DNA from: Echinarachnius parma
Lineage: Eukaryota; Echinodermata; Echinoidea; Clypeasteroida; Echinarachniidae
Assembly (NCBI GenBank): GCA_037951105.1
Contig: JBAMJV010004303.1
Coordinates: 22,501 to 86,500 of the forward strand
DNA: 64,000 bases
Direction: 5' to 3'
The position numbers and the translations under genes were made by a program. Positions within the stretch are counted from its first letter, which is position 1; each line of letters opens with the position of its first letter. The notes beneath the pieces are model-generated. The model was not told the origin of the DNA. It searched no databases and saw only the letters and a program-made list of their open reading frames with translations. Below are positions 367 to 60,302 of this stretch, piece after piece.

Positions 367-1519
367 GAAAGATGCAGCAAAGAAAGCCGCAGAACTTCGT
401 CAGCGTACGCCATCTGCCCGTGGCAACGCGTACATGAATTCAGCCTACTCATCTGAAGTACCAGACAACCAACAACCAGACGTGGTCAAAGTGCCTGGAG
501 GAAACCCCAGAATGAATGACGACAGTGGAGGATATGCTGATGTTCTGAAACCACCAGGTGGAGATGAAGAATACAGTTACGCCTACACGGAGACGAAAGG
601 CCACCAGGGAAGGAACACAACAGGTGTCGTTGGTAGTGACAGTGCTATGAATGACCACTCATATCAGTCAGTAAAACCCAAAGGAGATGCCCTCAAAGGG
701 TATACAAATCCCTGTAATAATGGTCCTGATTATTTCGTCCTGGAACCTCTGTCTACATCTCATTACCAAGAACAGCGACCAGTGGAACCTGATACGTCCG
801 GGAATGATACCTACCATCATCTCAACCACGACGGGACCTCACCAATGGCACAACCTGACGACGGATATGGAGTGGTATCTGCAACATCACAGGGCGAGCA
901 TGGCGAGGAGACCTACAATACACTGGACCACGGCGGAGTCGCGCTGGATGTCAACAGCGCAAGGAAACCCCAAGCCAGGTTAAAAAAGGGGGTGGACAAC
1001 GAAGTCGACAGTACGTACAACACACTTGGTCTCGTTGACGACGGGAGTCAACAGTCTCCCCCGACTCCTGACATCGGCGAATATGGTGCACTCGATCAGA
1101 ATCCTGCAACTGCGCCCGGCGAATCCAATGATGCATACAATGTTCTGCACCAGTCTTCAAAAACAACGGCTGATAAGGCCAGGCGTCAGGCCCCGCGAGA
1201 TGACCGGGATGTCAACGTTGACGACTACAACGTCCTCCACTCCGGGAGGGAAGTAGGAGACTACCACCAGTATCAGGACTTCGCAGCTGAGGAGCACCCT
1301 GACCAGTCCTCTCAACACGGAGCCCTGGACGATGCGGATTACAACGTCCTTCACTCTGGTAAGGAGGTCAGTGACTACCATCTGTACCAGGCGACAGAAC
1401 CACCCAAAGACAGCGACGACGTTTACTATTCGGCCATCAAAGACCAGATTCCGAAAGGCAACGGATCGACCCAACACGAACCAATCTACAGCGACGAAGT
1501 TTACTCTGACTTCAATTAA
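367..1519 (+). CDS. Cytoplasmic-tail exon of multi-tyrosine receptor, copy 1 (partial gene)
   Basis: Last exon of a receptor whose earlier exons lie left of the window. The open frame begins right after the acceptor AG at 365-366; its first base completes a split codon (phase 2), then 383 residues run to TAA at 1517-1519. The first ATG (434) is internal. The product is hydrophilic and acidic with no membrane segment. I count 12 YxxL/V/I motifs: YADV, YQSV, YFVL, YHHL, YGVV, YNTL twice, YGAL, YNVL three times and YSAI. STYNTL and VYYSAI fit the ITIM consensus (S/I/V/L)xYxx(I/V/L). A block YNVLHSG(R/K)EV(G/S)DYH occurs twice. The exon is strongly similar to 35276-36446. By analogy with other animal receptors, phosphorylated tyrosines would recruit SH2 proteins such as SHP phosphatases or Syk/Src-type kinases; that is inference. 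No homologue is named. Confidence 0.8.
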
Positions 1520-1884
1520 TGGTGCCATCACAGGAATCAAATTAATTGACTACAGTATGGTTAGAATTAAATTTGACAAGGTTTATGGGACTTTCTAGTG
1601 ACTGATCTTGTTGAGTCTTCCTCAATATTATAGTCTCTCGATGGCGTTATTATCAACAATCGGCCATATCATCCACATGTCAGCATCAGGTCCCGATTAG
1701 AGTGAATTATTATTTCTTTATCATGGTATCTACTATTAGTCGAGCAGGAAGTGCTAAGTGATAACTGCTTACATAATAGTCGCGGAACCTTGCTTATGGC
1801 TTCGTATGTATATATATTACAAATATATTATTACATCTGCTAAACTAGAGACGACGGGCCAATTGAGAGATATATATACGTATA
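1520..1884. other. 3' flank of receptor copy 1
   Basis: Probably includes the 3' UTR of copy 1. I see no convincing gene. It differs from the sequence following the copy 2 stop codon, which was replaced by poly-G repeats. Confidence 0.5.
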
Positions 1885-2995
1885 ACTTATGCTTAACATT
1901 TTCAAATCAGACAAGACGGGTTAAATGGGTTTTAGAATGTGTAACTGCATATGGAAAGTCTATAATATGTATGTTTTGTTGATCTATCCATTTGTATAAT
2001 TGAAATCATGATTTTGACCATTGATATTGCAGCGATGTTGTATATAAATGCAGACTATTATTTAACTGACACGTTATACATTATGCAATTATGTTTCTGT
2101 AAAACACAATTATATATATTATATTTTTCCAAAGTTTAAAGTGGTTCTCATATTATGTTTGATTAAAAAGGTTCTCGATATGTTTTTATTTTAAATTCTA
2201 TTTAAGGTTTTAGAGCAGGAATGAGAGAGTTTTGTATCTTTCAAACGTATCATTCATTTAACACACAAATGAATGGGAAAATGCACGTTTTTTCTTTTTT
2301 GTGTGTGACATGCGACTCTAAAATGACACGTGAATATGGTGAAAGCTCAACCGCAAATTTGGTTTTAAAAGATGCACAAGACGCAAGATGCGAGCGACGC
2401 GTTGTGGATTTTTTTTTTAGTAATCGCACCAATCGAGGAAGAGAGGCAAATCAGTCCCCTCTCCAGTCTTGTTAGGGTAAAAGTCTAGGTGAATTTTATG
2501 TGAATTGAGGCTTTTGCTTGAAAACACAAACATCCCTGCTTTGAACTTTTTATACAATGTACATGTATATATTATCTATGCTTAATATTCACAAAATCTG
2601 GAAGCTGGGTTGAATCGGACTATAAATGTGTATGTTTTGATGTTTTGTTGATCAATCCATTTGAACAATCAACATCATAATTGTAACCATTGATCTTGCA
2701 GCGAGTGTTTGTATATTAATTGCATGATATTATATAGCTGACACATTATGCCTAAACAGTTCTGTAAATTCAATTGTATATACTAATTTTCCAAGGTATA
2801 TATAGCGGATCTGATAGCGGTGCTCATATTATGTTTGATTTATGTTCTCGATATGTTTGTATATGTTTTATACACGTATTGATATTTAGCAGTACTACTG
2901 AATGTAAACGAAACAGTGTATATAGGCCACATCTTATATAATTATATTATATATTTTATATATTTTTATAAATGATCTATCATATTATTATCTAA

Positions 2996-3085
2996 TCAGT
3001 GGCGTAGCGACGGGCCGGGGCACGGGGGGGGGGGGGGGGGGGGTTCACGTGTTTATGCGTGGCCCACACAATTCTAAGCCTCGTG
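2996..3085. repeat. Poly-G patch of the 'AGTGGCGTAGC' repeat family
   Basis: 'cagtggcgtagcgac' leads into about 20 consecutive G. The same lead-in occurs at 43880, and variants at 50548, 53775 and 7040. At 50548-50683 the lead-in and an inverted 'gctacgccact' bound a short element, so this looks like one end of a dispersed DNA element. Confidence 0.55.
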
Positions 3086-3183
3086 GGTTTTTGGGTCGCC
3101 CCTATTTCCAAAATTATATGTTTGAAAATACAATGTTTTTATTTGCACATATGAATATTACATTATATTCTTGATGTACTATA

Positions 3184-3607
3184 GGATTTCTCGGTCAATT
3201 TCGTAAGTTGGCCACACAAATTCATTTGGTGTGCATTCAATTTCGCCGATTTTGTCACCGCAGCAGTATTCTGCAGTTCAAATTCGTTTTTTAGCATTCG
3301 AATTCATATAACAATCATTCGAAAACATTTTGTTTGCATTCGATTTAGAACGTGTTTCTATTTCGTAAAATTGTCATTCAATTTAAAGCGAGAAAATTTG
3401 TGATTACGTAATACCACCTTCCGTGAAATCCGTTGGCGAAATTGAATGCAAATAGCGTGTTTTTTAAATTGAATGCTAAAAATGCTAAATCGTATGAACA
3501 AAATGCAATTTTGAATGACAATTGCAAGCCTTCAGCTCAATTTCGCGAAATTGAATGAAACGCTTATCAAAACGAATGAGAAGCTTACGAAATTGGCTGA
3601 GAAAACC
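3184..3607. mobile_element. TA-flanked MITE with 'AATTTCG' core
   Basis: Terminal inverted repeats: the left end 'ggatttctcggtcaatttcg' is the imperfect reverse complement of the right end '...cgaaattggctgagaaaacc'. TA flanks both sides. The paralogous site near 44180 lacks this 424-bp block, which confirms a discrete insertion. The core is made of variants of 'attcaatttcg', also met at 53850-54420 and 60850-61190. A Tc1/mariner-type non-autonomous element is likely from the TA target. Confidence 0.75.
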
Positions 3608-3974
3608 TATATTATGTAATAACCTTGTTGTTTATCGACCATGTTTTTCTTTCGGTCTTGGTGTTTTTTAGGGTATTATATTTTCCCCACGTACTATTTT
3701 AAATATTCATACCGGTGGAAGCATTCATAAAGCCAATGGCTTTCCTAGCTGCCTCCACATTCTCATAATTATGTTTGTTGTATTCTAATTATGTTGCAAT
3801 TTCGTATTAATTTAAATTGTAATCTTTGTTTTGTATTTTATATGTTTTTATGATGAATGAATTAAAGAACAATTTCAATTTCAATTTTACTTGTATGTTT
3901 TCAACTTTAAAACAAACAAAATCTTGTTCAATTCATGATCAATTAAATTCTTGTTTAATTCAATTCAAGTACAT

Positions 3975-4105
3975 GGGTCCCGTTGCAAGAAAGAGATAAT
4001 TTGATTGTAAGTTAGAACTGATTGTAAGTCAGAAACTTTGCGCGTTTCAACCAATCAGACTCGCGCATTTAGAACACATGATCTGACTTACATAAGTTGC
4101 AACTT
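3975..4105. mobile_element. Fragment of 'GGGCCCCGTTGC' palindromic MITE family
   Basis: 'gggtcccgttgcaagaaaga' followed by 'gattgtaagtt' and 'acatgatctgacttac' matches the more complete palindromes at 13170-13319, 15870-16035 and 44296-44451. The right end is eroded here. Confidence 0.6.
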
Positions 4106-4220
4106 TACTTTATTTTCTCGTCGGTATAATTTGTAATGGAATTAATCAATGTTTTTTGGAAACGCTATCAAATGTTTTGACATGTTTATTTTTCCAAATG
4201 GTACCTCACGAAACGTCATT

Positions 4221-4676
4221 GAAAGGATAGTTGAGTTTTGGTATAGAGGGCGCTACACAATTTGTTTTGTGTCTGTTAATGAAAAACTCGAGTGTCAAAT
4301 TCGAAAGATCATACAATTTTAATGACAGAATAAACTTTATTTGATCAAAATCGGTTCAGAAATGGCTGAAATATCTCTCTATCTAATCCGACAATCTAAT
4401 CAATAAAACAACACATGCGCAATATTTTTATTTAAAATGGTTAAAACCAATGTGTGTTTAGAGAGCGCCCTCTTGAGTTTTAACGGCTCGTTTTGAATGA
4501 TATCAGGCTTTTCACTTAGTCATTTGTAATTTTGTATCCATTTCCTAGCATGGTGGACAGGTGGAGTTATAACTATTAGTTTATAATGTAATGGTGCAGA
4601 TTTTGGTTACTAAAATTCAGTTTGACCAAAACTGTCCTCTCTTTACCAAAAATCTACTATACCTTTAAGCGCATAC
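4221..4676. mobile_element. TTAA-family MITE, degenerate copy
   Basis: Begins 'aaggatagttgagttttggt' and ends near 'ctatacctttaa'. Internal landmarks of the family are present: 'actttatttgatcaaaatcg', 'gagagcgccctcttgagt' and 'agttataactattag'. It is one of about ten copies in this window; the intact copies are flanked by TTAA. Confidence 0.7.
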
Positions 4677-5056
4677 TAACGAAAGCGGGTTATTTACGAT
4701 TGAAGTATTCAGATTTTTAATTCTCCACTGGAAAGTTATACAATCATGTACGTAACTCTGTATAAATTCAGTGCAATTAGAAAATGAATATCACTTTGAA
4801 TTTTCGCTAGTAACTTGGCCATAATATACTATCAATTCAACGTGAAATTATCACACAGTAGACATATCAAAGCAATACCACATATCAAAGCAATATCAAA
4901 GCACAGCAATGCACATTTGTTTAACCATTTACCACTTTTTGCACATGACTGTGACCAAGTTACTAGATCACTTATATGCATCAACGCATCTACCTGATCC
5001 CGTGGAAGAACAGATCCACTACCAGTGAGAGTGGATCTCCCTGCCGGAAAGAACTT

Positions 5057-5385
5057 ACTCATCCACAGTGTGAACCTACTGTGTTTCACAGTGTGGACCA
5101 CAATGTTAAATTCGAGCGTTTTCACAGTGTGAAAACCAACTTACACTGTGAACACACTATAGGGCACTATATGACCACAGTGTAAAATCAAGGTGAAATT
5201 GTCTGCGTTCACAATATAGCGTGTAAAACGGTGTGCTCACAAAGTGCATCTCAGCAATTTCACAGTGTGTTCACAGTGTGTTCAGAGTGTGAGTTGGCTT
5301 TCACACTGTGAAAACGCTAGAATTTAACATTGTGGTCCACATTCTGAAACACAGTGTGTTCATACTGTGTTCACACTGGATGAGT
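5057..5385. mobile_element. Inverted-repeat element built of 'CACAGTGTG' motifs
   Basis: Left end 'actcatccacagtgtgaac' and right end 'tgttcacactggatgagt' are inverted repeats, and the arms stay complementary for about 60 bp (including 'gtggaccacaatgttaaatt'). Within the 329 bp, 'cacagtgtg' or its complement recurs around ten times. The paralogous site near 45130 lacks it, so it is a clean insertion. Superfamily not determined. Confidence 0.7.
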
Positions 5386-5993
5386 GTATTTACTCCGATA
5401 GGGCTGTCACGGGCAATACCCCCGATTTATCAGTCTATTGCACATATGTTTTTATTGATATACTGTGTCGTATATGTTTTGTCATCTTTTGTTAGAAAAA
5501 ATTGTCCTAATATATAGTATATTGTATATCCTTTTTATATTAACACAATTGAGAAAAGAAAAATACACAAGCCACATTCCCTGGTTTGAATTAACATCCA
5601 AATATTGATAACAATAGAAATAACGAATCAATATAGAGAAAAAACGAAAGTGATTACTAAATAAGCAAATTTTAATCATCATAGCATTTATCCACCGTCC
5701 ATTCATTACGCAGTAACACAATCATTCTGAATGATTTGGGTTCAATATTATAACGTCACCTTTTCCCCGGTTTAAAATGAGAGCGAAAGAGGAAGAGGAA
5801 TTAATTAAAATAATTGCCGCAATCGCATATAATTCATAGACCTAAACTGCAGAAAGACATGTCAAAAACAGGGCATGAAAAATAAAAGTCATACAATATG
5901 CACGAACGCAAAGGAACCACTTAATTCCGGATGTTTAGGTATAATTGTATCCTTATTATTCTTTGTGTAAATGTTAAACTGCACTAACGCAGT
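5386..5993. other. Intergenic, related to 8730-8840, 10784-10890 and 51250-51470
   Basis: No gene seen. 'gagcgaaagaggaagagga', 'agacctaaac' and 'cacgaacgcaa' recur in these regions. The block belongs to the duplicated upstream flanks of the receptor genes. Confidence 0.5.
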
Positions 5994-6589
5994 AAAGGGG
6001 GACCACCAGGCAAAGACGGATGGGGATGAATGTAACACACACAAACAAAATCAGATCGAACAGCCCTGTAATTTGGATTCTACGGATAAAAAACGAATGC
6101 GTCCCTCCATCAAACTATATATCGGTCAATAAAAGAGTTTAACTGATTTAGCATAATATTACAACAATATTGTACTTATTCTTATAAAGGTATTGTGAAG
6201 CCGACATTTGTAAACGTATGTCATGGAAAAATCTCAGAAATGAAGAATATGTAATTTACATGTAGTCAGTTTAAGCGAGGTTTGGTTATTTTGCTTAATA
6301 TTCGGTCATGCTATTTGTGTGCGGGCTGGCGCGGGTCACGAGGGGTCACGCATAACGTTGTGGTACTTCGTGGAATCCGTGTACGAGCTTCCTCACTGGG
6401 TGAATACACGTAATTGCACAATTAACCGTTGGTTGTCGTTTTTATTATTTTTAGGTCTATAACTTCACGGACAAGATATTTCAAGCCCTAATTTTTTCTG
6501 GCATGCTATTAAATGACATTTTCTTTCATATAAGACAAGAACCACGCAACTTTTGAAATTTGGCTTGCAAAAGAGGGAATGTCCCTTTA
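5994..6589. mobile_element. DNA element with 'AAAGGG' ends; inverted relative at 28290-28771
   Basis: Starts 'aaaggggaccaccaggcaaa' and ends 'gggaatgtcccttt', flanked by TA. The reverse complement of much of it (including 'acagccctgtaatttggatt' and 'tattgtgaagccgacatttg') is found at 28290-28771 within a receptor intron. Non-autonomous; no coding capacity. Confidence 0.6.
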
Positions 6590-8329
6590 ATAGGTAACGA
6601 CTATAAAGTTTCCAAGCCCCTAGATATTAAACTATACCATAAAACGACATTTCAAAAACACCACTCTGCAATATGTATTATAGACATTCATCATACACGT
6701 ACGCCTCTCTCGATCTTTGTGATAATGCTCATTAACTGTTTTGTTTAAACTGTTCGGTGGATGCCTGTTACCTGTCTGACTTGCAACTCTGTACTTTGTG
6801 CAGTTCTCCAGGCTGAATGAATTCAAGAAGAAGAAGGAAAAGGTGTCTGAACATATTACAACTAAGCTTTTATAGGAAACTTAAACACCAGAACAATTGC
6901 AGTTTCTTCAATATTGTTGTGGGATAATTTACACTACAACTTGCGCAACATATACAGTCATATTTGTTAAAATATATTGAATGTTATACTAGATTGACAC
7001 TGTAAAATACTGCGTTGTATTATTATCAGCAACAACAGCGGCTAGTGGAGCAACGGGTGGGTGGGGGGGGGGGGGGGCACGTTGCCACACAAAAGAAGTA
7101 AAAACAATACAAGATCATGAGGGGGAATTGTGTGGAAAACAAAATAAGAAAAAAGCATTAGCCTAAGATGTGCCTCCAATGTGCCCCCAAGTGGTGCACA
7201 CTATACGTCACCTACCCTGTGCTACATAATTGCACTGTTTGATAATCGTTTATCAGAAATAATCAACTCTAAATGTGGTTTGCTTTAAAGGGATCTAGTA
7301 ACTTTGTTGAAATGTGCAAAAAGGGATGAATGGTTGACACAATGTATGTTATCTGATATGTCCATTGGTAAAGTCCACTGGCAAAATGCAAAGTGATATT
7401 CGCTAACTCATTGCACTCACTTGTACACGGTTTCGATGATCCAGTGGATAATTAACATCTGAACACTTCAATCGTAAATATCTTTTTAACGAAAGGGAAG
7501 TTCGAAAAACCGAAACCTGTCCCATGCTTTCATTGTTAATATGAATACAACAAGGTATGATGGAACCACTAGAATTCCAATTGGATTTTGAGGATTTGGA
7601 CAATGTTACTAAGTCTCTTTAATATGTCTCCTTTTTAAGACGGTCGGTGGAGCAACTCGCAGACAACCGTCATGTTCAAGTCTAGATCGAGGTGACCGCC
7701 AGGTGTGATACTCCTTCTGTTTAGGTTTCAACACACCCATGATCAATTAAGATGTCCACGGTGGCGTAACTTGAATGGCCTGACTAATGTTTGTTTTTTG
7801 AGGGGCGAATTATTTTGGGACATACTTTTTATGATCCCCCATATTGTGTCTTTCTTCAATTATTAGTTGCCCCAATAGTTTGACAAAAACGACCTTTAGA
7901 GAAAAAAATTGAAGAAATAACAGAGAGTGTGTCCCCAATTATACGCGACACGGTCCCCCAACCAGTCCAACCACTTCACGTGTGCGTACTAATTTTGTGT
8001 GTGTACAAAGTCTCATTTAATGCAAGCACAATAGCCGATTTGCCTAACTCATATTTTATGACAACAATAAACGGTTTGTACTATGTACTGCACTATTAAG
8101 TCAAGGTATTGCCTTGTATACTAATATATTTTCTAAATTCACTTCCTCTTTTAACAAAAACGTTTTGTGATTTTGCAGTATAGGGGGAAACAGATTAGTA
8201 CAACAGACTAAGAGGCGCGCTGTAAAGGCACTCACTTTGGAACTTGATGAAGTATACGTAGGATGCATGTATACAAATAAATTTGCACATTATAATTTCT
8301 GACATGTGTATCAGTATCCATTGAACAAC
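6590..8329. other. Upstream flank of the first signal-peptide exon
   Basis: No gene supported. 7285-7640 resembles 50938-51250 upstream of copy 3 ('aaagggatctagtaactct/t', 'gcaaagtgatatt', 'cttcaatcgtaaatatcttt'). 7990-8329 resembles 11570-11926 ('caatagccgatttgcct', 'ttaacaaaaacgttttgtga'). This is where promoter elements shared by the paralogues would be expected, but no specific site could be recognised. A poly-G patch lies at 7060. Confidence 0.5.
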
Positions 8330-8393
8330 ATGTATACGATTTGGGTGGTAGTGTTTCTCGGCTCCATCGCTCCTGCAGTGACACAGAATGAAG
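8330..8393 (+). CDS. Signal-peptide exon, alternative first coding exon 1a of receptor copy 2
   Basis: ATG at 8330, 21 codons, then one base before a strong donor (G|GTAAGCA), so phase 1. The peptide MYTIWVVVFLGSIAPAVTQNE has a hydrophobic core and looks like a secretion signal. It is nearly identical to 11927-11993, and about 400 bp upstream are conserved too. Its phase fits the MAM exon at 14739. It may be an alternative promoter/first exon, or a remnant of a partial duplication. Confidence 0.6.
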
Positions 8394-9416
8394 GTAAGCA
8401 CGATTGATAAGGATCATTTGGCGTGAAAACAATATATTTTCCTTGATTATTTTTACCTTTATCCAGTTGGTCTTTACACTCAGTAGACTGATAAGTATCT
8501 GATCCATCATGCTTGACATCTTAATCAGTTTTAGCATAATACGTGTGGTTACAGTCTGTTTGATTGTCCATAATGTATAGATATTTGCTAGTTTGTACAT
8601 ACTTTGAAACATGAATGTATACCCAGTCTAAACACATATTGTAAAAAGAGCATACAGTGAAATAGCGTGGTCGGACTGATTGGGGAGAACGCAAATGATT
8701 TTTTTTTTTTAGATAAATAATTTGGTTCAATATGACGTCACATTTACTCTGGTTTGAAAGAAGAGCGAAAGAGGAAGACGAATCAATGAAAATAATCGAT
8801 TGCGGCAATCTCATGCATACAGTTTACAGACCTAAACCGCCTAAACCGGCTTGGTACGAACAGTCACGTCACGTTCACGTTGACGTCACGTGAACGGTTC
8901 TGTACCTTTTGTGAAACGGGTCACCCAAATCTACGAAGTGTAGGGTAAAGTGACCCAACAATTTGTCGTTTTCCATGCCGGTAAAACTCGAAGTGTCGCG
9001 TTAACCAAATCGTGACGTGAGCGTTTAATCAAGATTTTTAAAATTGCAAACGCTTGTTACTAAGACTAGACATACACGCACAAAGAGATTTAAAAATGTC
9101 GACGAAAATGCCGATACCCCCTTATCAAATCTTTTCAATCATTATGTTTATAATATGTACGTGCATAATTCAGAGTAATCTGAGACGATAATATGCAGTT
9201 CTGTCATTTAGGTAATGTACAACCATACCACTTGCATTATTTGTCTTGTTATTGGAGTATTTCTAAAGACGTGTCGTGCGTGCATTTTGGCAAATGTTGA
9301 TTTCCAGCTGAATTGCTACACGCAGCGGACAATTCAGTTCGCATACGCCTGAAGTTCCCGTGCTCGACGTCTGCGCGTACTGGCCCTTAACGGCGTTGTA
9401 TGTGCATGCCTGTGAA

Positions 9417-9444
9417 AGTGAGTGAGTGAGTGAGTGAGTGAGTG
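9417..9444. repeat. (GTGA)n microsatellite
   Basis: Seven tandem copies of gtga/tgag inside the MULE-like element. Confidence 0.9.
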
Positions 9445-9659
9445 ACTGGCAGCAGTGATCAACGAGTTTAAAAGTAATACAACAATGATTTGATTAATAG
9501 TGTTTATTTATGGTTATTGAATCGAGTCAATCTATAAGTCAGTCATTTAATCTAATAAACAATCAATTAATCAGTCAATCATTATAATGAAACAATCACA
9601 CCAATCAATCAATATTAAATAAATCAATTAATGTATTTGACATTCTAGCTACTTGTAGG

Positions 9660-10455
9660 CAGTGGCGTACCCAGGATTTTTTCAAGGGGTGAGTGTAGGG
9701 GGGGGGGGAATATTTCGTCAGACAAATTGAAGTAAGCGGGGGGAGTGTGGGTAGGGGGTGTCCGTAGAAAATGACCGCAGCCGAGGACGAGACCAGGACC
9801 GGTCACAAATTTCGAGGCCGAGACCAAGACCTAGATCTGTCAGTGTCTTTGTTTTTAAACGCAAATTGAAATTACATTTATTGAGTAACTATGTCGAGAA
9901 TTAACGTTAAAATTATATCACCAGAAATGATATTAAGTAATAATTTATTAATTGTTATTGATAACGTGCATTATCTTTTTGTTCTTGTTATGTTTGTTTA
10001 TTCAATATAAATGTCAGCATTTCACATTCTCTCTCTCTCTCTCCCCCCCCCCCCCCCTCCTCTCTTCTATTTTTCTTTATCTTAACACCAAATACCATTT
10101 CCCCCTATATACATATAACTTTCTTCTTTCTCTGTTTATTTAATCATTTGTAGTTTTGTTAACTTTGAAACATTTTAAAAAGTGAAACATTGATGTATTA
10201 TGTTATATGGGGACCTTGCTCTTACAAGCCCAGCTTCTCTAAGGTCTCCACTTTCTTTCATTTGGATTGTATATCGACTTAATATTGCACTTAAATTGTT
10301 TTTCTTATGCTGTTTTGTTCTATTATTATATGTAAAAATGTTGTGAAAGAAAGAAATAAAATGAACCTTGAAACCTTGAACCTTGAATTATGTAAGGGGG
10401 GTGGGGATGGGGGTAGGGGGTGTCCATCCCCCAGCCCCCAGGCCTGTGTACGCCT
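9660..10455. mobile_element. Nested repeat with 'GGCGTACCC' and 'GTACGCC' ends
   Basis: Starts 'gtggcgtacccaggattttt' followed by G-runs and ends 'ggcctgtgtacgcctata'. The start is shared with 24165 ('gcgtacccatgattttttca'). The interior contains a CT-rich low-complexity run (10030-10060) and the tail-like repeat 'accttgaaaccttgaacc' near 10370, which resembles a LINE 3' end. A composite of nested insertions is likely. Confidence 0.45.
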
Positions 10456-10775
10456 ATAATTGTATATTACAGTATAGGTAGGACGGGTTCGTTCACGATT
10501 AAATTTACCGAGAATTAGTCTCTTCTCAACGACAATTTACATTAATTTGTTTTACGCAAGCGCCAATTTACGTGAACTTTCATGAATTGCATATAGTATA
10601 TCTACAAACTGTTGGGTCACGTAACCCAACACTTCGTAGATTTGGGTGACCTGTTTCACAAAAGGTACGGAACCTGAACGTAACACTTCGTAGATTTGGG
10701 TGACCTGTTTCACAAAAGGTACAAAACCTTCACGTGACGTCAACGTGAACGTGACGTGACTGTTCGTACCAAGCC

Positions 10776-11926
10776 CCTAAACCGCAGAATGACATGACAA
10801 AAAGTGCATAAAAAGAAGAAGTCATACATTTATACACGAACGCAATGGAACCACTCGGTTCCGGATGTTCAGGTTAGTTTGGTACTCCATACCGTTACGA
10901 GGTTATACGACTTTCATGGTTCCAAGCTCCGAGACCTTCAAATGCGTAGTTTCAAGAAATAACCTTTTGATGAGTTAATAACACACTCAGTATTACATTT
11001 GAAAAAGCACACAATATTAATGACATAATCAACTTTATTTGATCAAAATCGGTTCACAAACGGCTGAAATATCCATTATTATATCTGATGGGAATAAATG
11101 TATTTTACACATTTCTAAAAAATATACCAAAAGAAAATGTTTTTTTTTTAATGTTGTCAAAAAATACAAAAATATAAGCGGGAATTATGTTGAAAACAAA
11201 ATACGACAAAAACATAAGCGTATAATGAGTGAGCATTCATAATCAGAAACAATACACTATGAATGGGGTTTGCTTTAAAATGTCATAAAATGTTATAAAG
11301 ACGGTCGGTGGAGCTAGTCGCAGTCTACAAACAACCGTCAGAACAGGTTGATGTTTCACTTTGGTCAAAATCTTTAAGTAGGTTCCATACTTCATCAATC
11401 AATGAAGAATTCCAAACATTTTACAGATTGAAGATTTAAAGATTACAAACCTTTTATTAGGGCACGATCTATAGAAAAATTAAGAAAATACAGAGAATTA
11501 AGAAACAGCCTACAGTTTGTCCCCAATAATTTGCGGCACCCCCAATCAGTCCAAACACTCAGCCAACGTGTGTAATTGAGTGTGTAAATGTATATGTGCA
11601 AGTTAGAATACAATAATATAATTGATGCAAACACAATAGCCGATTTGCCTGACTCATATTTTATGTCAACACAAAATGGTTTGTATTATACATGTACTTC
11701 ACTATTCATTCAAGGTAGGCCTACTTCCTTGTATTACAATAATTTTTCTAAATTCAGTTCCTCTTTTAACGAAAACGTTTTGTGATATTGCAGTGGGGAA
11801 CTTAGATCAGTACAACAGACTGAGAGGCGCAGTAAAAGCACATTGCTACTTGATTTAGTCGCATTATACTTGAATAAATCTGCACATTATAATTTCTGAC
11901 ATGTGTATCAGTATCCATTGAACAAC
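10776..11926. other. Flank of second signal-peptide exon with a MITE fragment
   Basis: 10985-11110 is a TTAA-family MITE fragment ('atttgatcaaaatcggttca'). 11570-11926 duplicates the region upstream of 8330. No gene other than the exon that follows. Confidence 0.5.
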
Positions 11927-26409: not shown

Positions 26410-26444
<35 letters not shown>

Positions 26445-26480
26445 TTAATATTATTATTAGTAGTAGTAGAAGTAGTAGTA

Positions 26481-26561
<81 letters not shown>

Positions 26562-50515: not shown

Positions 50516-52540
50516 TACCGATTTATTAGTCTCATTATACTTTTGTGCAGTGGCGCAACTACGAGGGGGTATTTGCCAAACGATATCAATCATAATGGGT
50601 ATATTTTTGACGAAATAAAGAAAAAACATAATGCGTGCCACCTATAATTTGAGTGCCCCGTACGTCCGACCACGCTACGCCACTAGATATGCTTTGTCAT
50701 CTTATTTAAAAACCTTTTTGACTAACTAAGAATGTATTCTACATCATTGTTATCAATACGATTTAGAAATAAACATATACAAAATTAGCAAGCAAATATT
50801 TGCCACATGCATCGCTGACTTGAATCAACAGCCAATCATGGATGACAATACAAAACACACAATAATACAGAGCGGAACAAACGAAACAAAACGTCGTGAA
50901 TCATAACCATTCTTTATAGCCATTGCGCATTAAAGGGATCTAGTAACTCTGATGAATAGGAGATAGAATGTGCATTTTTGTGTTTAATGCCCACTGAATA
51001 AGTAGGCTACTGAACGAACATTGCAAAGTGATATTTGGTAACTCATTGCAATGACTTAAAATAGTACGCAGTATGTTTACATTTTCCAGTGGAAAATTAA
51101 AAGTCCGAACACTTCAATCGTAAATATCTTTGTAATGAAAGGGAAAATTTAAAAACCGAAACCTGTGCCATGCTTCTAAGTTTATACGAACACAACAAGT
51201 TGTGACAGATCTAATTAAGATTTGTGGATGTTGGCAATGTTAGAAGATCCCTTTATGATACTCGATAATTTGGTTCAAGCTTATAGTTTAATCTTATCGG
51301 GCACATTTCCACTGAATTGAAAGAAAAGCGAAAGGGGAAGAGGAATAACAAATAAATAAATTGGTAGTCGCATACTAGAGACCTACACCACAAAATGGCA
51401 TGGTAATAATGCCCATGAAAAAACAACAATGTCATAGTATACAGTCATACACGAACGTAATATAAACAGCGGTGTGCGTTACACAAACGCAAATATGAAT
51501 ACACAGTGTTGCCACAACCGCTATATCCAATTAGTGTTGGAATAACTTGAACCTGATCCATTTTATAACAAATATGAATTCACTCATAACTGCATACTGT
51601 TATCGGTTATGACCAAGCCCACAGACCATTCAAGTAGAACAGAGCCTGAGACATTTTCAAAACGACCGAATGGTGTCCGATACATGCAGCAATGTCAATA
51701 ATTATCAGAACCACTTATTTCATGAAATGCTTACTATAATTAATAATAATAGTACGAATTTGGACCATGATTGTGACACTGCCGATATATCGATGTGTGT
51801 GTGTGTTTGCGTGTATGCGTACGTGTGCGTATAGTGTGCGTGCGTGAGTGTGTGTGTATGATTATGTGAGCGTGTGTGTGCGTGGGTGTATGAGTATGTG
51901 TGAGGAGTGACAGTACCCCCTCTGTGCATGTGTGTATTATGTCATGTTTGTAAAGAGGGAAATTATTATTATGATCACGAAGTCTAAAGTACACCCAGCC
52001 ACAATGGCCACTGCAGCCGATATACTAAACAATATTACATTGCACTATACTGCTAGGGGAAATCAGAATTTTGGCTCTGTACTTCCTCATCGATGTCCCG
52101 CAGACTTTAAACACAACCAACAGAAACTGCACCTGAACAGTAGCACCAAGTACCTGTAAATAGAACATCCACGCACTTCACTGGCACTGCACTGCACTGC
52201 CTCTCAGGACAGCACCGAATGGCGCTTTTAAGGAGATATTTTCTTCAAGTATCAAGTATCAAGTATTACAGAGGAATCTCACTCAATACCTGAATTATAG
52301 TTCATAATAAATCGTATTATTATTATTATGGCTGCACGGCCGGGCCGTCGGTTATTCTCTCACGGTCATTTCGGGATAATACAATATTATATCAGCCTTC
52401 CAACTCTTTTAGCGTGTGTGTGTGTGTGGTGAAGAAAACTACATCCTCATTAATAATTCCATACAAAACGGAAAAGCCGGGTGTTAACTCGACAGATAAA
52501 TTAATTATTACGATATCAACAAATCCTTGCGTTTATATCT
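50516..52540. other. Upstream flank of receptor copy 3
   Basis: 50548-50683 is a small 'AGTGGCG(C/T)A' element with inverted ends. 50938-51470 is paralogous to 7285-7640 and 5735-5960. A TG-rich microsatellite is at 51797-51905, and 52320-52340 is ATT-rich. No gene; a promoter is expected but not recognised. Confidence 0.5.
51797..51905. repeat. TG-rich microsatellite
   Basis: About 110 bp of imperfect GT/GTGC/GTAT repeats. The open frames on the complementary strand (His/Thr-rich) are its readout. Confidence 0.9.
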
Positions 52541-52637
52541 ATGAGTGTGGAGTTCTTCAGCATGATCAACATGTCGTTCTTGGTGCCTTTCGTCTTTCTT
52601 CTTGGGTTCGTCGGTACCTCGTCAGCAGTAGACCCAG
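52541..52637 (+). CDS. Signal-peptide exon of receptor copy 3
   Basis: In-frame ATGs at 52541, 52562 and 52571; the exon ends one base into a codon before G|GTAAGC (phase 1), as in copy 2. From the third ATG the peptide MSFLVPFVFLLGFVGTSSA is a textbook signal sequence with probable cleavage after SSA, so 52571 may be the true start; the longest form has 32 codons. The sequence is not close to the copy 2 signals, but phase and the following MAM exon agree. The rest of this gene extends to the right of the window. Confidence 0.65.
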
Positions 52638-54504
52638 GTAAGCACTTTTGAACATATTTGACTTCTGAGTTCTTAATATGGATGCATGAGTGCTGTGCCC
52701 CCCATACTTCAAAATGTGTTGAATAACATAATGGCTAAAATGTGTTTTCCTGTAAAGAAATTGTCTTGTACACTGTAATGTACTAATACACCTACTTACT
52801 ACACCACGAGTTACATTGCATAATAGTCTACATATTATACACCAGGGGAGAGGTTATACCCCCCCCCCCCCTTCCTGTCTCGGTTGTTTTAACCCTCTGA
52901 GTGCCGAATTAAATTGCAAGCACGTGCTTACCCAATTTCTTTTTGGGATAAGCCCCCGAGTAATCATTTGTATGTGTGCTTTTAGAATTGAAGCGCATTA
53001 GATTTGATTCCTTTAGTTCATTATTTTGACAATAAGTCGACAATTGCACACAAAGTGTTAATTGTTTCCTCGCCACCGCCCCCTCCCCTATCACTGTAAT
53101 CATACGCCACTGAGTTTAAGTGACGAAGCTAGGAATAACGGTTGACTGCTAAAATGCATACCGATATTCATATTGTCTCTAAAAACCGATACATCTGGGT
53201 TGTAGGGGGCCTCTCTTGCGATAAATACACTCTAAACATTATCCGCCCCCATAGCAGAGATATACAATGCAGTTGGTCGACCCGAAACAGATTTTATATC
53301 TTCATTACACCATTTAAAATCTGTATTTGTTAGTATCGCAATATATTAGTGGCGTGACTAGAGAGACCCAAACGACTAACTAATAGAAGTTTGAAATCAT
53401 TTTCCACTTCGTTGGTAATACTCAATTAAAAGAAGAAAAAATTATATAGAGTTGTACAAACGCCCCAAAAACTAGGATTTGCTGAATTATTACTTGGGCA
53501 TATACGGCACTTATTTATGGTGAAACTACACACAATTTATCAACTCTTTGTTCAAGGCATGTTGAATAGATTGTATTTGTGTGTACAGTATATTGTAAGG
53601 AATATATATCTTCTTTTTTTTGTACAGTATTGATCACATGCCATTCGTGGCTCCATCCGAAGTCACGGGATTTATTTAATATGTTTTGCACCACATCTTG
53701 CGTATCATAAACTGATACAGTGCGAAGATTAGCAATTCAGCCACATTGATAGTTGTTTGGAAGATTGTATACTGCAGAGGCGTAGAGTGGTCGGGCTGAC
53801 TTGACACACGAATTATTCGTTATTTATTTATTATTATAGGTGTCCCCCTCGATTTTAACACTTTTGACATTCAATTTTAAAATGTATCCTTCAATTTCGT
53901 TCCGAGAAGCCGAGAATATGCCAATGCCAACTTCAATTTCGTCTATTTTCGACCAATTTTTAAAAAGTCCATTCAATTTAGGCATTTGTCACACATGATC
54001 GTCCAGAGCAATTCAAATGCGTCAGTTATACTATGTTTTCAGGAACCGCGACCGCGAATTTGAATTATACTCTCCCAGCACAAATTTATTGTATTGATAA
54101 ATCAAACAATCAGACTTTTTGACAGCACCGTTTGTGTTTAACAATATCAAAATAACTTGTTTTTGTCTAATCAATCGTTTAAGAAACGATTATTTATTGA
54201 TAACGTCATCGTTTGTCATGGGGAAAATGCATATGAAACAGAGCAACCAGACGGCAAGACGAATTTGAACGACGAAGTCTTGAAATCGAATGAACATAAT
54301 TCGATTAACATAACGCGCACGACGAATTCCATTGCACAATGACGAAATAGAATGACCAAATTTTACAATTTGAATGTAGCTATTGCACATTCTCGAGACG
54401 AAATTGAAGTTACAAAATTGAATGACGATTGTTTGAAAATGGATGGGAAAATGTTATTGTTATTACTTTTATTATTGTGATTGAAAAAGAGCAAAGGAAA
54501 ATGA

Positions 54505-54577
54505 GATTCCAACGGGATTCGAACCCGAGACCTCCAGATTACTAGACCGGTGCTCTTACCGACTGAGCTATAGAAAA
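54505..54577 (-). tRNA. tRNA-Thr(AGT)-like sequence, minus strand, probably degenerate or TE-borne
   Basis: 73 bases with D-arm (GCTC...GAGC), anticodon loop CTAGTAA (anticodon AGT), and T-arm GGTTCGAATCC with internal A- and B-box-like sequences. Two acceptor pairs and the last anticodon-stem pair are mismatched. It is embedded in an inverted repeat with the plus-strand copy 217 bp away, so a tRNA-derived mobile sequence is as likely as a working tRNA gene. Confidence 0.55.
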
Positions 54578-54794
54578 CCATATGACGGCGCTCGCTCGTC
54601 CCTGAAACCCCTTAATTCTTCATTGCTCGAGTTGTTTTAATTAATTATTTAAAAAGATGCATCACTTCGGTGATCCCTCGCATATATCTCCAAGTTGATT
54701 TTCATCCTTCGGGTTTATGTCAGGTTTATAATAGCTTCTGACCACTCGAGCAATGAAGAATTAAGGGGTTTCAAGGACGAGCGCCGTCATAGGG

Positions 54795-54867
54795 TTTTCT
54801 ATAGCTCAGTCGGTAAGAGTACTGGTCTAGTAATCCGGAGCTCTCGGGTTCGAATCCCGTTGGAATC
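54795..54867 (+). tRNA. tRNA-Thr(AGT)-like sequence, plus strand, probably degenerate or TE-borne
   Basis: Inverse partner of 54505-54577, with the same cloverleaf and AGT anticodon (loop CTAGTAA). A few stem bases differ (for example 'gagtactggt' against 'gagcaccggt'). The flanks 'caatgaagaattaagggg' upstream and 'tttgctctttttcaatcaca' downstream are shared, in inverse, with the other copy. Confidence 0.55.
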
Positions 54868-55002
54868 CCATTTTTCTTTGCTCTTTTTCAATCACATTAT
54901 ATATTTCTGGTCAGTGTCCTTATATATTTGAATTACTTTTATTATTGTTACATTATTTTTCATTCTTATTGTTACTATTATTACCATCAGTTTTTGTATT
55001 AA

Positions 55003-56082
55003 AGGGATAGTTGAGTATTGGTCAAACTTAACTTTAGTAACCAAAACCTGCACCATTACGGTACAAAATAATAGTTATAACTTCACCATGCTCGAAAAGT
55101 ATACACAATTACAAACGACTAAGTAAAACCCCTGTTATCATTCAAAAAGAGCCGTTACAACTCAAGAGGGCGCGGTCTAAAAAAAATATTGGTTTTAGCC
55201 ATTTTTCATACAAAATTGTGCATTTAATGTTTTGTAAAAAAAATGATTCAATAGAGATATCATCAACAACTTTTTAAAAACCTATTCAGATTTTTTCAAA
55301 GTAGTCTTTAAGCATTTTTAAATTTGTTTCTAAAAAGTCAAAATATCCCCTGGTGAAGATTTTTTGAATAAAAATATGTTAAAGGGGTAGTTTAGTTTTG
55401 GTAAGGCTGAACTTTAGTAGCCAAAACCTGCACAGTAACATTATAAACTAATAGTTATAACTCCACCATGCTCGAAAGGTATACAAAATTACAAACGACC
55501 AAGTAAAACGCCTGTTATCATTCAAAAAGAGCCATTAAAACACAAGAGGGCGCTTTTTTAAAAGGCATTGGTTTCAACCATTTTCAGCCAAAATTATGCA
55601 TGTGATGTTTTGTTGATATAATGATTAAATAGCGAGATCATCAACAACCATTTAAAAAACGCTTTTGAAATTTTTTGAAAAAGTGCAAGCATTTTTTTTA
55701 TTTTTTCAAAAAATCATCTAATTATTTGGGCCCCAAATAATTATAAGATCAGATATATTTATTGATATTTCAGCCGTTTCTGGGTCGATTTTGACCAAAT
55801 GAAGTTTATTCCGCCATTAAAATTGCATGTTCTCTCAAATTCGACACTCAGTTTTTCATTACCTCACAAAAAAAGTGCGATGTGCAGCGCCCTCTCTACC
55901 AAAACTAAACTACCCCTTTAAACTTTATGGATATTTCAGCCGTTTCTGAACCGATTTTGTTCAAATAAAGTTTATTCTTTCATTAAAATTGTATGTTCTT
56001 TCGAATTTGACAGTCAGTTTTTCATTATCTCACAAAAAATTGTTTGTGAAGTGCCCCCCTTTACCAACACTCAACTATCCCT
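55003..56082. mobile_element. TTAA-family MITE (AGGGATAG subfamily) containing a nested relative
   Basis: TTAA at 54999-55002 and 56083-56086; ends 'agggatagttgagtattggt' and 'cactcaactatccct'. The sequence is continuous with other copies if 55383-55917 is removed ('aaatatg' then 'tttatggatatttcagcc'). Confidence 0.85.
55383..55917. mobile_element. Nested TTAA-family MITE (AGGGGTAG subfamily)
   Basis: 535 bp, ends 'aggggtagtttagttttggt' and 'aaaactaaactacccct', exact TTAA duplication (55379-55382, 55918-55921). It is inserted in a member of the AGGGATAG subfamily, so it moved later. Confidence 0.9.
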
Positions 56083-57550
56083 TTAATATTGATATTGTTA
56101 TTATTGTCAGTATTATTTTCATTATTATTATCATTATAATTATGTTTCGATTTATACAGCGCCTATCATGATTGATAATCATCTCAAACCGCTTTACAAT
56201 GATATTATCATTGAAAGTGAAGTAAATCAAATCAAATCAATACAATTCCTGGGGAATTGACGTCTTTATTTCCACAATTCATAAAAAGACACTACATATG
56301 TAAAGATGTACAAGAACAAAAACAGCAATGTACAAGAACAAAAACAGCAATATACACGGAGACTACAGAACATACAGAAAATATAAAACAGGTTTAAGAA
56401 AAACTATGTTTACATTAAGGCAATATGAATGTGGAGGGATCAGAAGAAGTTTTGTAAAAACTTATGGGTATGATCCCTAGGGTATATAGTAATAAAAATC
56501 AAAGTTAAAAAGAAAATCAATTTCGGTAAGTTTTACTTTATGCAATTGTCATGTTTCAAGTCAAACAATGCCAAGTCAAACATAGTTCAAACAAAAATTG
56601 TATACATATTTTTTTTAATGTCAGGAGTTATACATTTTCTAATAAAAGACTTTTTAATTTAATCTTAAAGGAATTCAGTGAAACACTATCTTTCAATTCC
56701 TGTGGGAAATTATTCCATAAAATGGGACCTTTATATGTTATTATTGTATGCGAAAAATGAGTCCGTCCATAAGTAACACGAAGGTGGGATTTGGATCTGG
56801 TGTCATAATTATGCACATCGCTATTCTGAATAAATAATGAGTCGAATAAATTTGGTAACAGTTGTTTATGGAATGAAAACATAAAAATGCCAAGATTATA
56901 TTCATACAATTGATAAATAGGTAAAACCTTCAATTTAATAAAGAGAGACTTAGAATGAGATAAATAAGAAGAGTTTGTAATTATTCTAACAGCTCTTTTT
57001 TTGTAGTTTATGCAAACGATCCAAGAGGTAATTATTGCAACATCCCCAAAGTATAATACAGTAATTTAAATGTGGTAGTATTAAAGCATTATATAATAAC
57101 AATAAAATATGTTCAGGGAGATACTCTTGCAGCTTATTTAAGACTCCAATATTTCTTGAAATTTTACTTATAACATTATTAAGGTGGCTCTTCCATTTAA
57201 TTTCCTCATCCAAAAAAACTCCTAAAAACTTCACAGTGTTCACCTTTTCAATTTTATCACGATCAATAAATAATTCTATATCCATCACATTAGAATTATT
57301 CCCAAAGAGCATAAAATGTGTTTTTAGGGCATTCAAAACTAGTTTGTTTGCTAAAAACCATGTATGAACTTTCACTAGATCAACATTCATTATTACATTT
57401 AATTGATCAAAGTATTATCATATGAAAGGTAGTGTTGAGTATTGGTATTTCCCGAAGTGCCCCCCGATATTTTTTTGTGAGATAATGAAAAACTGACTGT
57501 CAAATTCAAAAGAACATACAATTTTAATGACAGAATAAACTTTATTTGAT
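55574..57550. repeat. 1.98-kb tandem duplication, left copy
   Basis: Nearly identical to 57551-59527 at a constant offset of 1976-1977 bp. It includes part of the nested MITEs, a LINE 3' fragment and the start of a third MITE. Confidence 0.9.
56628..57390 (-). pseudogene. LINE reverse transcriptase C-terminal fragment, left tandem copy
   Basis: Minus strand. It has WFLANKLVLNALKTHFMLFG, then VNTVKFLGVFLDEEIKWKSH, ILPHLNYCIILWGC and LDRLHKLQKK, then a +1 frameshift in a run of seven A (57000 region). It continues as a second frame ending HNYDTRSKSHLRVTYG and GPILWNNFPQELKDS. The palm (YADD) and everything before it is missing. 'gatttgatttgattt'-type repeats form its 3' end (56220-56240). A CR1/Jockey-like LINE, related to but distinct from 40103-40798. 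Confidence 0.85.
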
Positions 57551-59527
57551 CAACCATTTTCAGCCAAAATTATGCATGTGATGTTTTGTTGATATAATGA
57601 TTAAATAGCGAGATCATCAACAACCATTTAAAAAACGCTTTTGAAATTTTTTGAAAAAGTGCAAGCATTTTTTTTATTTTTTCAAAAAATCATCTAATTA
57701 TTTGGGCCCCAAATAATTATAAGATCAGATATATTTATTGATATTTCAGCCGTTTCTGGGTCGATTTTGACCAAATGAAGTTTATTCTGCCATTAAAATT
57801 GCATGTTCTCTCAAATTCGACACTCAGTTTTTCATTACCTCACAAAAAAAGTGCGATGTGCAGCACCCTCTCTACCAAAACTAAACTACCCCTTTAAACT
57901 TTATGGATATTTCAGCCGTTTCTGAACCGATTTTGTTCAAATAAAGTTTATTCTTTCATTAAAATTGTATGTTCTTTCGAATTTGACAGTCAGTTTTTCA
58001 TTATCTCACAAAAAAATTGTTTGTGAAGTGCCCCCCTTTACCAACACTCAACTATCCCTTTAATATTGATATTGTTATTATTGTCAGTATTATTTTCATT
58101 ATTATTATCATTATAATTATGTTTCGATTTATACAGCGCCTATCATGATTGATAATCATCTCAAACCGCTTTACAATGATATTATCATTGAAAGTGAAGT
58201 AAATCAAATCAAATCAATACAATTCCTGGGGAATTGACGTCTTTATTTCCACAATTCATAAAAAGACACTACATATGTAAAGATGTTCAAGAACAAAAAC
58301 AGCAATGTACAAGAACAAAAACAGCAATATACACGGAGACTACAGAACATACAGAAAATATAAAACAGGTTTAAGAAAAACGATGTTTACATTAAGGCAA
58401 TATGAATGTGGAGGGATCAGAAGAAGTTTTATAAAAACTTATGGGTATGATCCCTAGGGTATATAGTAATAAAAATCAAAGTTAAAAAGAAAATCAATTT
58501 CGGTAAGTTTTACTTTATGCAATTGTCATGTTTCAAGTCAAACAATGCCAAGTCAAACACAGTTCAAACAAAAATTGTATACATATTTTTTTTTATGTCA
58601 GGAGTTATACATTTTCTAATAAAAGACTTTTTAATTTAATCTTAAAGGAATTCAGTGAAACACTATCTTTCAATTCCTGTGGGAAATTATTCCATAAAAT
58701 GGGACCTTTATATGTTATTATTGTATGCGAAAAATGAGTCCGTCCATAAGTAACACGAAGGTGGGATTTGGATCTGGTGTCATAATTATGCACATCGCTA
58801 TTCTGAATAAATAATGAGTCGAATAAATTTGACAACAGTTGTTTATGGAATGAAAACATAAAAATGCCAAGATTATATTCATACAATTGATAAATAGGTA
58901 AAACCTTCAATTTAATAAAGAGAGGCTTAGAATGAGATAAATAAGAAGAGTTTGTAATTATTCTAACAGCTCTTTTTTTGTAGTTTATGCAAACGATCCA
59001 AGAGGTAATTATTGCAACATCCCCAAAGTATAATACAGTAATTTAAATGTGGTAGTATTAAAGCATTATATAATAACAATAAAATATGATCAGGGAGATA
59101 CTCTTGCAGCTTATTTAAGACTCCAATATTTCTTGAAATTTTACTTATAACATTATTAACGTGGCTCTTCCATTTAATTTCCTCATCCAAAAAAACTCCT
59201 AAAAACTTCACAGTGTTCACCTTTTCAATTTTATCACGATCAATAAATAATTCTATATCCATCACATTAGAATTATTCCCAAAGAGCATAAAATGTGTTT
59301 TTAGGGCATTCAAAACTAGTTTGTTTGCTAAAAACCATGTATGAACTTTCACTAGTTCAACATTCATTATTACATTTAATTGATCAAAGTATTATCATAT
59401 GAAAGGTAGTGTTGAGTATTGGTATTTCCCGAAGTGCCCCCCGATATTTTTTTGTGAGATAATGAAAAACTGACTGTCAAATTCAAAAGAACATACAATT
59501 TTAATGACAGAATAAACTTTATTTGAT
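57551..59527. repeat. 1.98-kb tandem duplication, right copy
   Basis: Second unit of 55574-57550. At the junction (57546-57556) 'ttgatcaaccatt' fuses 'tttgatcaaaatt' (right end, 59524) to 'ggtttcaaccatt' (left end, 55572), with TCAA as the only shared bases. Confidence 0.9.
58605..59367 (-). pseudogene. LINE reverse transcriptase C-terminal fragment, right tandem copy
   Basis: Same fragment as 56628-57390 with a handful of substitutions (for example Asp/Glu at residue 4 of the first frame, Pro/Ser in QLL(P/S)NLF). It carries the identical frameshift, so the shift is older than the duplication. Confidence 0.85.
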
Positions 59528-59952
59528 CAAAATTGGTTCAGAAACGGCTGAAATATTCATAAATATATTTTTATTCAAAATGTTCTTCACCGGCAATCAC
59601 GGGCGATATTTAGACTTTTTAGACAAATTTCAAAAAATGCTCGTAGACTACTTTGAAAAAAAGCAGAATAGGTTTTTTTTAAAGTCGTTGATGATATCTC
59701 TATTGAATCATTATTTTAACAAACATTAAATGAACAATTTGGTATGAAAAAAGGCTAAAACCAATGATTTTTGTTTAAATAGCGCCCTCTTGAGTTGTAA
59801 CGGCTCTTTTTGAATGATAACAGGGGTTTTACTTAGTCGTTTGTAATTGTGTATAATTTTAGAGCATGGTGAAGTTATAACTATTACTTTGTACCGTAAT
59901 GGTGCCGGTTTTGGTTATTAAAGTTAAGTTTGACCAATACTCAACTATCCCT
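59402..59952. mobile_element. TTAA-family MITE adjoining the LINE fragment
   Basis: 'gtagtgttgagtattggtat' to 'actcaactatccct' followed by TTAA. The left terminus is altered where the LINE fragment abuts. The duplication breakpoint lies inside it. Confidence 0.8.
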
Positions 59953-60218
59953 TTAACATCAAATAAGTCCCTGAATAAACAGATCTCTATCCAAGGTCTA
60001 GTCCACCCCCTTACAACGTAATCGAGGTGAACACCCGCGGCCTTAGATTGAATTCATAAAACTACCAAGGAATAAAACGCAACAAAAAACAACCGTGGGT
60101 GTTATCAATTAATGTGAAAACTTGATTCGACCAACCGTATCACATGCTTACCGTCGTTTTCACGAGTCAGTATTTGCAATCAGTCCTTGTAATTTGACCT
60201 GTTCAATCTTGTTTTCAG
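59953..60218 (+). other. Intron end before the MAM exon of copy 3
   Basis: No repeats recognised. Ends in a good polypyrimidine tract and acceptor (TCTTGTTTTCAG, 60207-60218). Confidence 0.6.
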
Positions 60219-60302
60219 ATTTTTCCTGTGATTTGGGTGTCTTTTTAAGCTCAACGAGTTGTGGAATTACCCAGGAACCGAATGACCAGGGCAATTGGGC
60301 GA
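60219..60302 (+). CDS. First MAM-domain exon of receptor copy 3
   Basis: 28 codons, phase 1 to phase 1, donor A|GTATGT. FSCDLGVFLSSTSCGITQEP and NDQGNWA align with FSNNNCGIQQDSNDGGWW of copy 2 around the two cysteines (C-D-[LF]...C-G-I-x-Q-[ED]). With the signal exon at 52541 it gives SSAVDPDFSCDL at the junction. The following MAM exons are beyond the window or unrecognised within 60303-64000. Confidence 0.7.

Follow-up and report, generated by a model that had tools for sequence, protein, structure and literature searches.

Three tandem genes on contig C4301 of Echinarachnius parma (140,338 bases) encode predicted cell-surface receptors in which a MAM ectodomain is joined to a long tail of tyrosine motifs. 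The window analysed here is a stretch of 64,000 nucleotides of this contig (bases 22501-86500; w denotes a window coordinate), and it holds parts of genes 1 and 3 and the exons of gene 2. The genes are members of a large clustered family in which divergent MAM domains stand beside conserved tails, and the tails have a history of their own. On balance, we lean towards reading these sequences as a tandem family of recognition receptors that exchange their signalling tails, for which coelomocyte immunity would be the likeliest setting. What is new is a clustered family of such putative receptors with a MAM ectodomain and a homogenised tail of core tyrosine motifs.

Gene architecture, family size and tail motifs

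Each of the three genes, all on the plus strand of C4301, has a signal exon, one MAM domain spread over three exons and a tail exon of about 390 amino acids (aa). Splice sites were placed by eye and by script from the genomic sequence, signal and transmembrane (TM) segments were called by hydropathy and by eye, and exon co-membership was tested through the genome-wide recurrence of the predicted exons. A preliminary description of the window had given all three loci a common exon order and splice phase. This is borne out for genes 2 and 3, in which stalk and TM exons were also identified and which are alike in exon order and intron phases (1-1-0-1-1-2), whereas only signal, MAM and tail exons were identified in gene 1, within which 5 kb of the contig (17501-22500) reads N. 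The tail exon said to be common to genes 1 and 2 is 83.5% identical in DNA between them, and gene 3 has a tail as well, beyond the window. Two genes on contig C5216 agree with genes 2 and 3 in exon order and phase from the first MAM exon onward. No signal exon was found for either of them, and in one the stalk exon occurs twice. In a more distant gene, on C4620, the MAM exons are likewise followed by stalk, TM and tail exons.

The ectodomain was assigned by matching the three joined exons to the Pfam MAM profile PF00629, which has a curated cut-off of 26.4 bits. Three of the five spliced models exceed this value, namely gene 1 (28.9 bits, profile positions 1-153 of 158) and the two C5216 genes (33.7 and 29.5 bits, from position 42 or 44 to 153-154), whereas gene 2 (22.1 bits, 1-152) and gene 3 (17.9 bits, 80-152) fall below it. 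In genes 1 and 2 the match extends across almost all of the profile; in the three remaining models it covers the second part. Genes 2 and 3 are assigned a MAM domain because they are homologous to the other family MAMs. The gene 2 domain is 63% identical to that of gene 1 and 40% identical to that of gene 3, and there are cysteine and tryptophan positions common to all five in their alignment. A profile made from the five genes gave weak PDB matches to a metalloendopeptidase (E 0.007) and an enteropeptidase (E 0.096), in parts that we take to be MAM domains. Neither immunoglobulin (Ig) nor VWD domains are among the matches listed for the spliced models (the best 25 of 30 for gene 2), and neither these nor any other convincing Pfam domain was found in the plus-strand frames of gene 2, where domains split between exons can be missed, as the MAM domain was. 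Two sub-threshold matches in these frames lie on a low-complexity stretch.

A single N-terminal MAM domain, as first described, is present in the three C4301 genes, but one stretch of C5216 (54-74 kb, minus strand) departs from this plan. There, another pair of MAM exons (B and C) is located upstream of the MAM of the 54-kb gene; between the pair and that MAM a reverse-transcriptase-like frame was seen, but neither a stalk nor a TM or tail exon. This pair may belong to a two-MAM gene or to a decayed copy. The same stretch includes head-to-tail repeats of about 463 bases. Elsewhere in the assembly, other MAM exons form large arrays on contigs C3482 and C666, and many of these score higher against Pfam; neither contig was matched in the genome-wide search with the family tail.

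The genome-wide searches covered an assembly of 1.2 Gb in 14,790 contigs, in which haplotypes are not collapsed. Its mitochondrial COX1 gene has TGA for Trp, AGA for Ser, AAA for Asn (from one informative codon) and ATA for Ile at isoleucine positions, and lacks AGG; downstream of COX1 are tRNA-Arg and frames taken to be ND4L and COX2. This genetic code and gene order point to an echinoderm. There are at least 94 matches to the tail, at no fewer than 49 loci on 27 contigs, these counts being lower bounds according to the search itself. MAM exon B was found by searches with two MAM proteins at 55 places on 26 contigs, a list drawn from 32 and 60 match rows with MAM-A, MAM-C and duplicate-place rows omitted. 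There are 22 contigs in common (hypergeometric P 2.5e-62, with contigs treated as equal), on which all 50 MAM exons lie on the strand of the tail, and 30 of 38 tail loci have a same-strand MAM exon within 30 kb upstream. Four MAM contigs have no tail match. The signal exon of gene 3 has four matches in the genome (C4301, C448 and two on C3252) and that of gene 2 has five (three on C4301, and one each on C5317 and C5216), with E values of up to 1. All nine are on family contigs and on the strand of the family genes, and eight are upstream of a family MAM exon; the ninth (C5216:8587) is past the last gene, near the contig end, with no MAM match beyond it. These observations support the earlier proposal of a tandemly expanded family of type I receptors with a MAM ectodomain, a stalk and a multi-tyrosine tail, and extend its copies far beyond the window.

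There are 27 tyrosines in the gene 2 tail and 11 YxxL/I/V motifs, compared with 3.2 in shuffled sequences. A count of 11 is reached by only 3 of 20,000 shuffles, which rules out a chance origin of the motifs. The gene 1 tail has 12, so the initial count of 11-12 stands; tails of about 390 aa have 11-13, and the 13 tails compared have 11-23 each. With each motif scored once, Asp or Glu occurs at position -1 or -2 in 8 of 12 motifs in gene 1 and 7 of 11 in gene 2, where about one is expected, and in 5-11 motifs in each of the 13 tails (expected 0.9-1.9). The form YNxL is likewise frequent, with 2-6 occurrences per tail against 0.1 expected. The tail motif is thus the core YxxL/I/V, often as YNxL.

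The preliminary description had invoked immunoreceptor tyrosine-based inhibitory motifs (ITIMs), the related activation motifs (ITAMs) and hemITAMs, wording that finds no support in that form. The ITAM pattern Yxx[LI]x6-12Yxx[LI] is absent from the gene 1 and gene 2 tails and occurs once in the partial gene 3 tail and 0-3 times in ten other tails. There is no hemITAM (an acidic run followed by GYxx[LI]) in any of the 13 tails. The ITIM pattern [ILVS]xYxx[ILV] occurs twice in gene 1 and once in gene 2, where 0.7 is expected by chance, 1-2 times in eight close tails (0.6-0.9 by shuffle) and 2-4 times in five distant ones (0.6-1.3). The idea that the tail came from a transposon or a virus was also considered and rejected: neither window tail exon has a Pfam match, there is no PDB match, and viral contigs yielded no confirmed relative. 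Distant tails are longer than close ones. For example, the tail exon on C8610 has about 645 aa and 23 YxxL/I/V motifs, three of them at ITAM spacing, and it has apparently grown by internal repetition.

Separate histories of ectodomain and tail

Among 16 genes in which both parts are present, the tail is better conserved than MAM exon B in 116 of 120 pairs, with median identities of 84% and 55%, respectively. MAM exons were extracted from 39 of 40 fetched loci (C5440:138082 had no clean exon and was left out), and several automatic 3' ends that overran were trimmed at a conserved motif. There are seven pairs with a tail synonymous divergence (dS) of 0.000, of which six are at 60-71% MAM identity and one (C3959b and C448, probably alleles) is at 97%. 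The 120-pair table, its medians and three of the six pairs at 60-71% (those with C2545a) rest on uncorrected exons, in that the MAM exon is cut short in genes B and C2545a and three extra front residues are kept in C2545a and C5317a. Corrected exons were used for the ratios of nonsynonymous divergence (dN) to dS and for the approximately unbiased (AU) tests.

The two C3959 genes, which are 43 kb apart, have a tail dN of 0.001 over 389 codons and MAM values of 0.22 for dN and 0.26 for dS. Similarly, gene 2 and the 54-kb gene of C5216 have tails that are 96% identical and MAM exons that are 27% identical. The MAM data reject the tail clade of gene 2 and five type II genes (AU p 6.6e-8), and the tail data reject the MAM clade of gene 1, gene 2 and C5317b (AU p 1.7e-6), although the groups were taken from the identity table and the p-values are therefore not fully a priori. 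The history of the tail differs from that of the ectodomain.

In four of five pairs, sliding identity switches at the tail exon or up to about 0.5 kb before it. For C3252 and the 15-kb gene of C5216, an identity of about 45% gives way to one of 96-100% at the tail exon, and for gene 2 and the 54-kb gene of C5216 one of about 80% gives way to 92-100% near the start of this exon. Between the 94-kb gene of C5216 and C12199, identity rises from about 50% to 100% some 430 bases before the tail exon, and between the 54-kb gene of C5216 and C3959a from 60% to 95% across about 400 bases that end roughly half a kilobase before that exon. In the remaining pair, the two C3959 genes are 98-100% alike throughout the first 3.6 kb fetched, which places their switch further upstream. 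We infer that gene conversion or unequal crossing-over is the cause of tail sharing.

The two parts also differ in constraint. For the MAM exon, seven close genes give a mean dN of 0.197 and a mean dS of 0.185, a ratio of 1.07, whereas the tails of the same genes give 0.39, and those of a nine-gene set 0.38. These sets were picked by hand from the 16 genes and omit C448, which is nearly identical to C3959b, as well as more distant MAM types. Evolution of the MAM exon is possibly relaxed or diversifying.

Gene 2 itself is a chimera, in which an additional stalk-TM cassette of the earlier type has been kept. Its first cassette is of type I: compared with the type I gene of C5317, the stalk is 81% identical (27 aa) and the TM exon 91% identical (33 aa). 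In that C5317 gene the tail exon follows about 1 kb after the TM with no further stalk or TM match between. The second cassette and the tail are of type II and resemble those of the C5216 genes. The simplest history would be an exchange that joined a type II 3' half onto a type I gene. Since each cassette is in phase with the tail, alternative splicing between the two is possible. Neither the chimeric structure of gene 2 nor the mosaic of ectodomain and tail had been noted in the preliminary description.

Candidate functions and related systems

Each intact gene is predicted to encode a signal peptide, a MAM ectodomain on a stalk that is rich in Thr, Ser and Pro and probably O-glycosylated, a single TM helix and a tail of about 390 aa with 11-13 core tyrosine motifs. 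If these proteins are recognition receptors, the MAM domain would bind a variable ligand, whether microbial, self or mate. Perhaps clustering driven by this ligand lets Src-family kinases phosphorylate tail tyrosines, on several of which SH2 proteins could dock at once. Gene conversion or unequal crossing-over would then keep one signalling output on many different ectodomains. A role in self-recognition is possible. A bolder proposal, which we regard as rather doubtful, is that the family forms an echinoderm self/non-self system that evolved apart from Ig systems, wherein array recombination generates and sorts MAM diversity and a single gene-converted multi-tyrosine tail provides the common readout.

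Several observations weigh against the recognition-receptor interpretation. Of the 38 tail loci, 8 lack a MAM exon on their own strand in the 30 kb upstream, and five tail contigs have no MAM match. The copy count is inflated by haplotype duplicates such as C3959b and C448, and because these were counted the true number of genes is probably below 49. The gene 3 tail (contig 96006-96092 and 96961-98013) has an interruption of 0.87 kb and is possibly damaged, and the frame changes within some other tails, so that some copies may be dead. The window tails lack the classical ITAM and hemITAM, and YxxL/I/V is also a clathrin-sorting signal. Finally, in a test for positive selection, the dN/dS of the MAM exon does not significantly exceed 1 (bootstrap P(dN<=dS) 0.41), with a ratio of 0.85 in the nine-gene set.

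The sorting signal suggests that the proteins could instead be endocytic or scavenger receptors, whose YxxL/I/V motifs serve mainly AP-2 and whose tail drives uptake rather than SH2 signalling. The motif fits both classes. However, the array spans the whole tail, its acidic excess at -1 or -2 and its preference for YNxL are features that AP-2 does not need, and 11-13 sorting signals would be redundant. We consider this explanation unlikely.

Another possibility, to which we give little weight, is that these are gamete-recognition receptors resembling zonadhesin, with fast ectodomain evolution driven by sperm-egg conflict. The order of MAM and stalk, the divergence of the ectodomains and the echinoderm origin are all in keeping with this, and zonadhesin combines MAM domains and a mucin stalk. 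Zonadhesin has mucin-like repeats and a TM segment as well, but it differs in its VWD domains, short tail and single gene. The dozens of copies and long multi-tyrosine tails found here are unlike it, and the plus-strand frames of gene 2 hold no VWD domain, albeit with exons read singly.

The family might also comprise general epithelial or developmental adhesion proteins that expanded without any recognition role. MAM domains are classically adhesive in RPTP mu and meprin, and they occur in the ectodomains of the single-pass receptors RPTP mu and kappa, neuropilin and ALK. These receptors have other ectodomains and enzymatic or short tails, and none of their other domains is among the Pfam matches listed here. 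A weakly constrained MAM beside constrained, homogenised tails would be unexpected for housekeeping adhesion, which makes this account improbable. Least credible is the view that the loci are mostly decayed duplicates and that their exon chains are artefacts of splice signals occurring by chance among the many repeats of the region. In its favour are the many transposon-like stretches, the split gene 3 tail and the chance candidates that the relaxed signal-exon scan also yielded. Against it, 14 matches to the tail extend from query residue 1 to 389 with no stop, the tail dN/dS is low (0.39) and the signal exons recur on family contigs only.

For recognition receptors, the nearest working analogue is the family of fester co-receptors (FcoR) of the Botryllus fuhc locus. 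These are described (PMC12065747) as clustered type I receptors with a variable ectodomain and a long tail bearing core Y-x-x-I/L/V motifs, some alone and others beside a canonical ITIM or hemITAM. The MAM family shares the clustering, the variable ectodomain and the long core-tyrosine tail, but FcoR ectodomains are built from Ig and sushi domains and their motifs include canonical ITIM and hemITAM, whereas here there is MAM and mainly the core motif. The same paper mentions the Hydractinia Alr allorecognition genes, which are clustered and encode receptors with tyrosine motifs in the tail (PMC12065747). The mammalian CEACAM and CD300 families are reported to show concerted evolution of duplicated receptors and paired signalling tails. 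They differ in their Ig ectodomains and classical ITIM or ITAM tails, and Alr has Ig-like ectodomains in place of MAM.

The preliminary description knew of no named family of this build, and no description of a receptor family combining MAM with a multi-tyrosine tail is among the literature matches listed, which mostly do not cover subscription journals. The Toll, NLR and SRCR repertoires of echinoderms are large, but these animals are not known to have a clustered ITIM-like receptor family or a self-recognition locus. The MAM family is a concrete candidate, and its ligands, tails and polymorphism can be tested. It also offers a clear natural example of exchange keeping a signalling module uniform while ectodomains drift apart.

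Gene coordinates and neighbouring elements

The preliminary description had already located the gene 1 tail, the extent of gene 2, the start of gene 3 and its first MAM exon correctly.

Exons of the three C4301 genes (w, window coordinate; contig, C4301 coordinate)
Feature	Position	Strand	Remark
Gene 1 signal exon	contig 4897	+	left of window
Gene 1 MAM exons	contig 13674, 14586, 16958	+	left of window
Gene 1 tail exon	w367-1519	+	383 aa, stop 1517-1519
Gene 2 signal-peptide exon	w8330-8393	+	MYTIWVVVFLGSIAPAVTQNE, phase 1
Gene 2 second, duplicated signal-peptide exon	w11927-11993	+	possible alternative first exon
Gene 2 MAM exon A	w14739-14834	+	
Gene 2 MAM exon B	w19491-19729	+	apparent GC donor
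Gene 2 MAM exon C	w27002-27086	+	
Gene 2 type I stalk exon	w27719-27835	+	relic or alternative
Gene 2 type I TM exon	w28972-29068	+	relic or alternative
Gene 2 type II stalk exon	w32383-32574	+	Thr-rich, mucin-like
Gene 2 type II TM exon	w34052-34151	+	
Gene 2 type II tail exon	w35276-36446	+	389 aa, 11 YxxL/I/V
Gene 3 signal-peptide exon	w52541-52637	+	start codon 52541, 52562 or 52571
Gene 3 MAM exon A	w60219-60323	+	first MAM exon
Gene 3 remaining exons	contig 88342-98016	+	right of window

The two signal exons of gene 2 lie in a duplicated stretch of 0.6 kb (w8017-8635 and w11622-12235, 75% identical), which possibly provides alternative promoters. Between the two stalk-TM cassettes, near the inferred fusion point, is an open frame of 282 aa (w30354-31202) with weak sub-threshold Pfam matches to coiled-coil families; it presumably resembles an ORF1 protein of a long interspersed nuclear element. 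The intron between the type II TM and tail exons contains an inverted repeat (w34177-34847) with 264-nt arms that are 97% complementary and a 143-nt spacer, resembling a miniature inverted-repeat transposable element. This repeat is absent from the matching site of the 54-kb gene of C5216. A sharp break 435 bp upstream of the gene 2 tail, once considered, was withdrawn, as this point is the edge of the inverted-repeat insertion.

Two further elements are associated with gene 3 and the region before it. Between genes 2 and 3 there is an open transposase frame of 442 aa (w45612-46940; PF13359, DDE_Tnp_4, 120.6 bits), which we take to be Harbinger-like. The first intron of gene 3 holds a tandem duplication of 1.98 kb (w55574-59530, 99.3% identical), whose minus-strand frames look by eye like pieces of reverse transcriptase.

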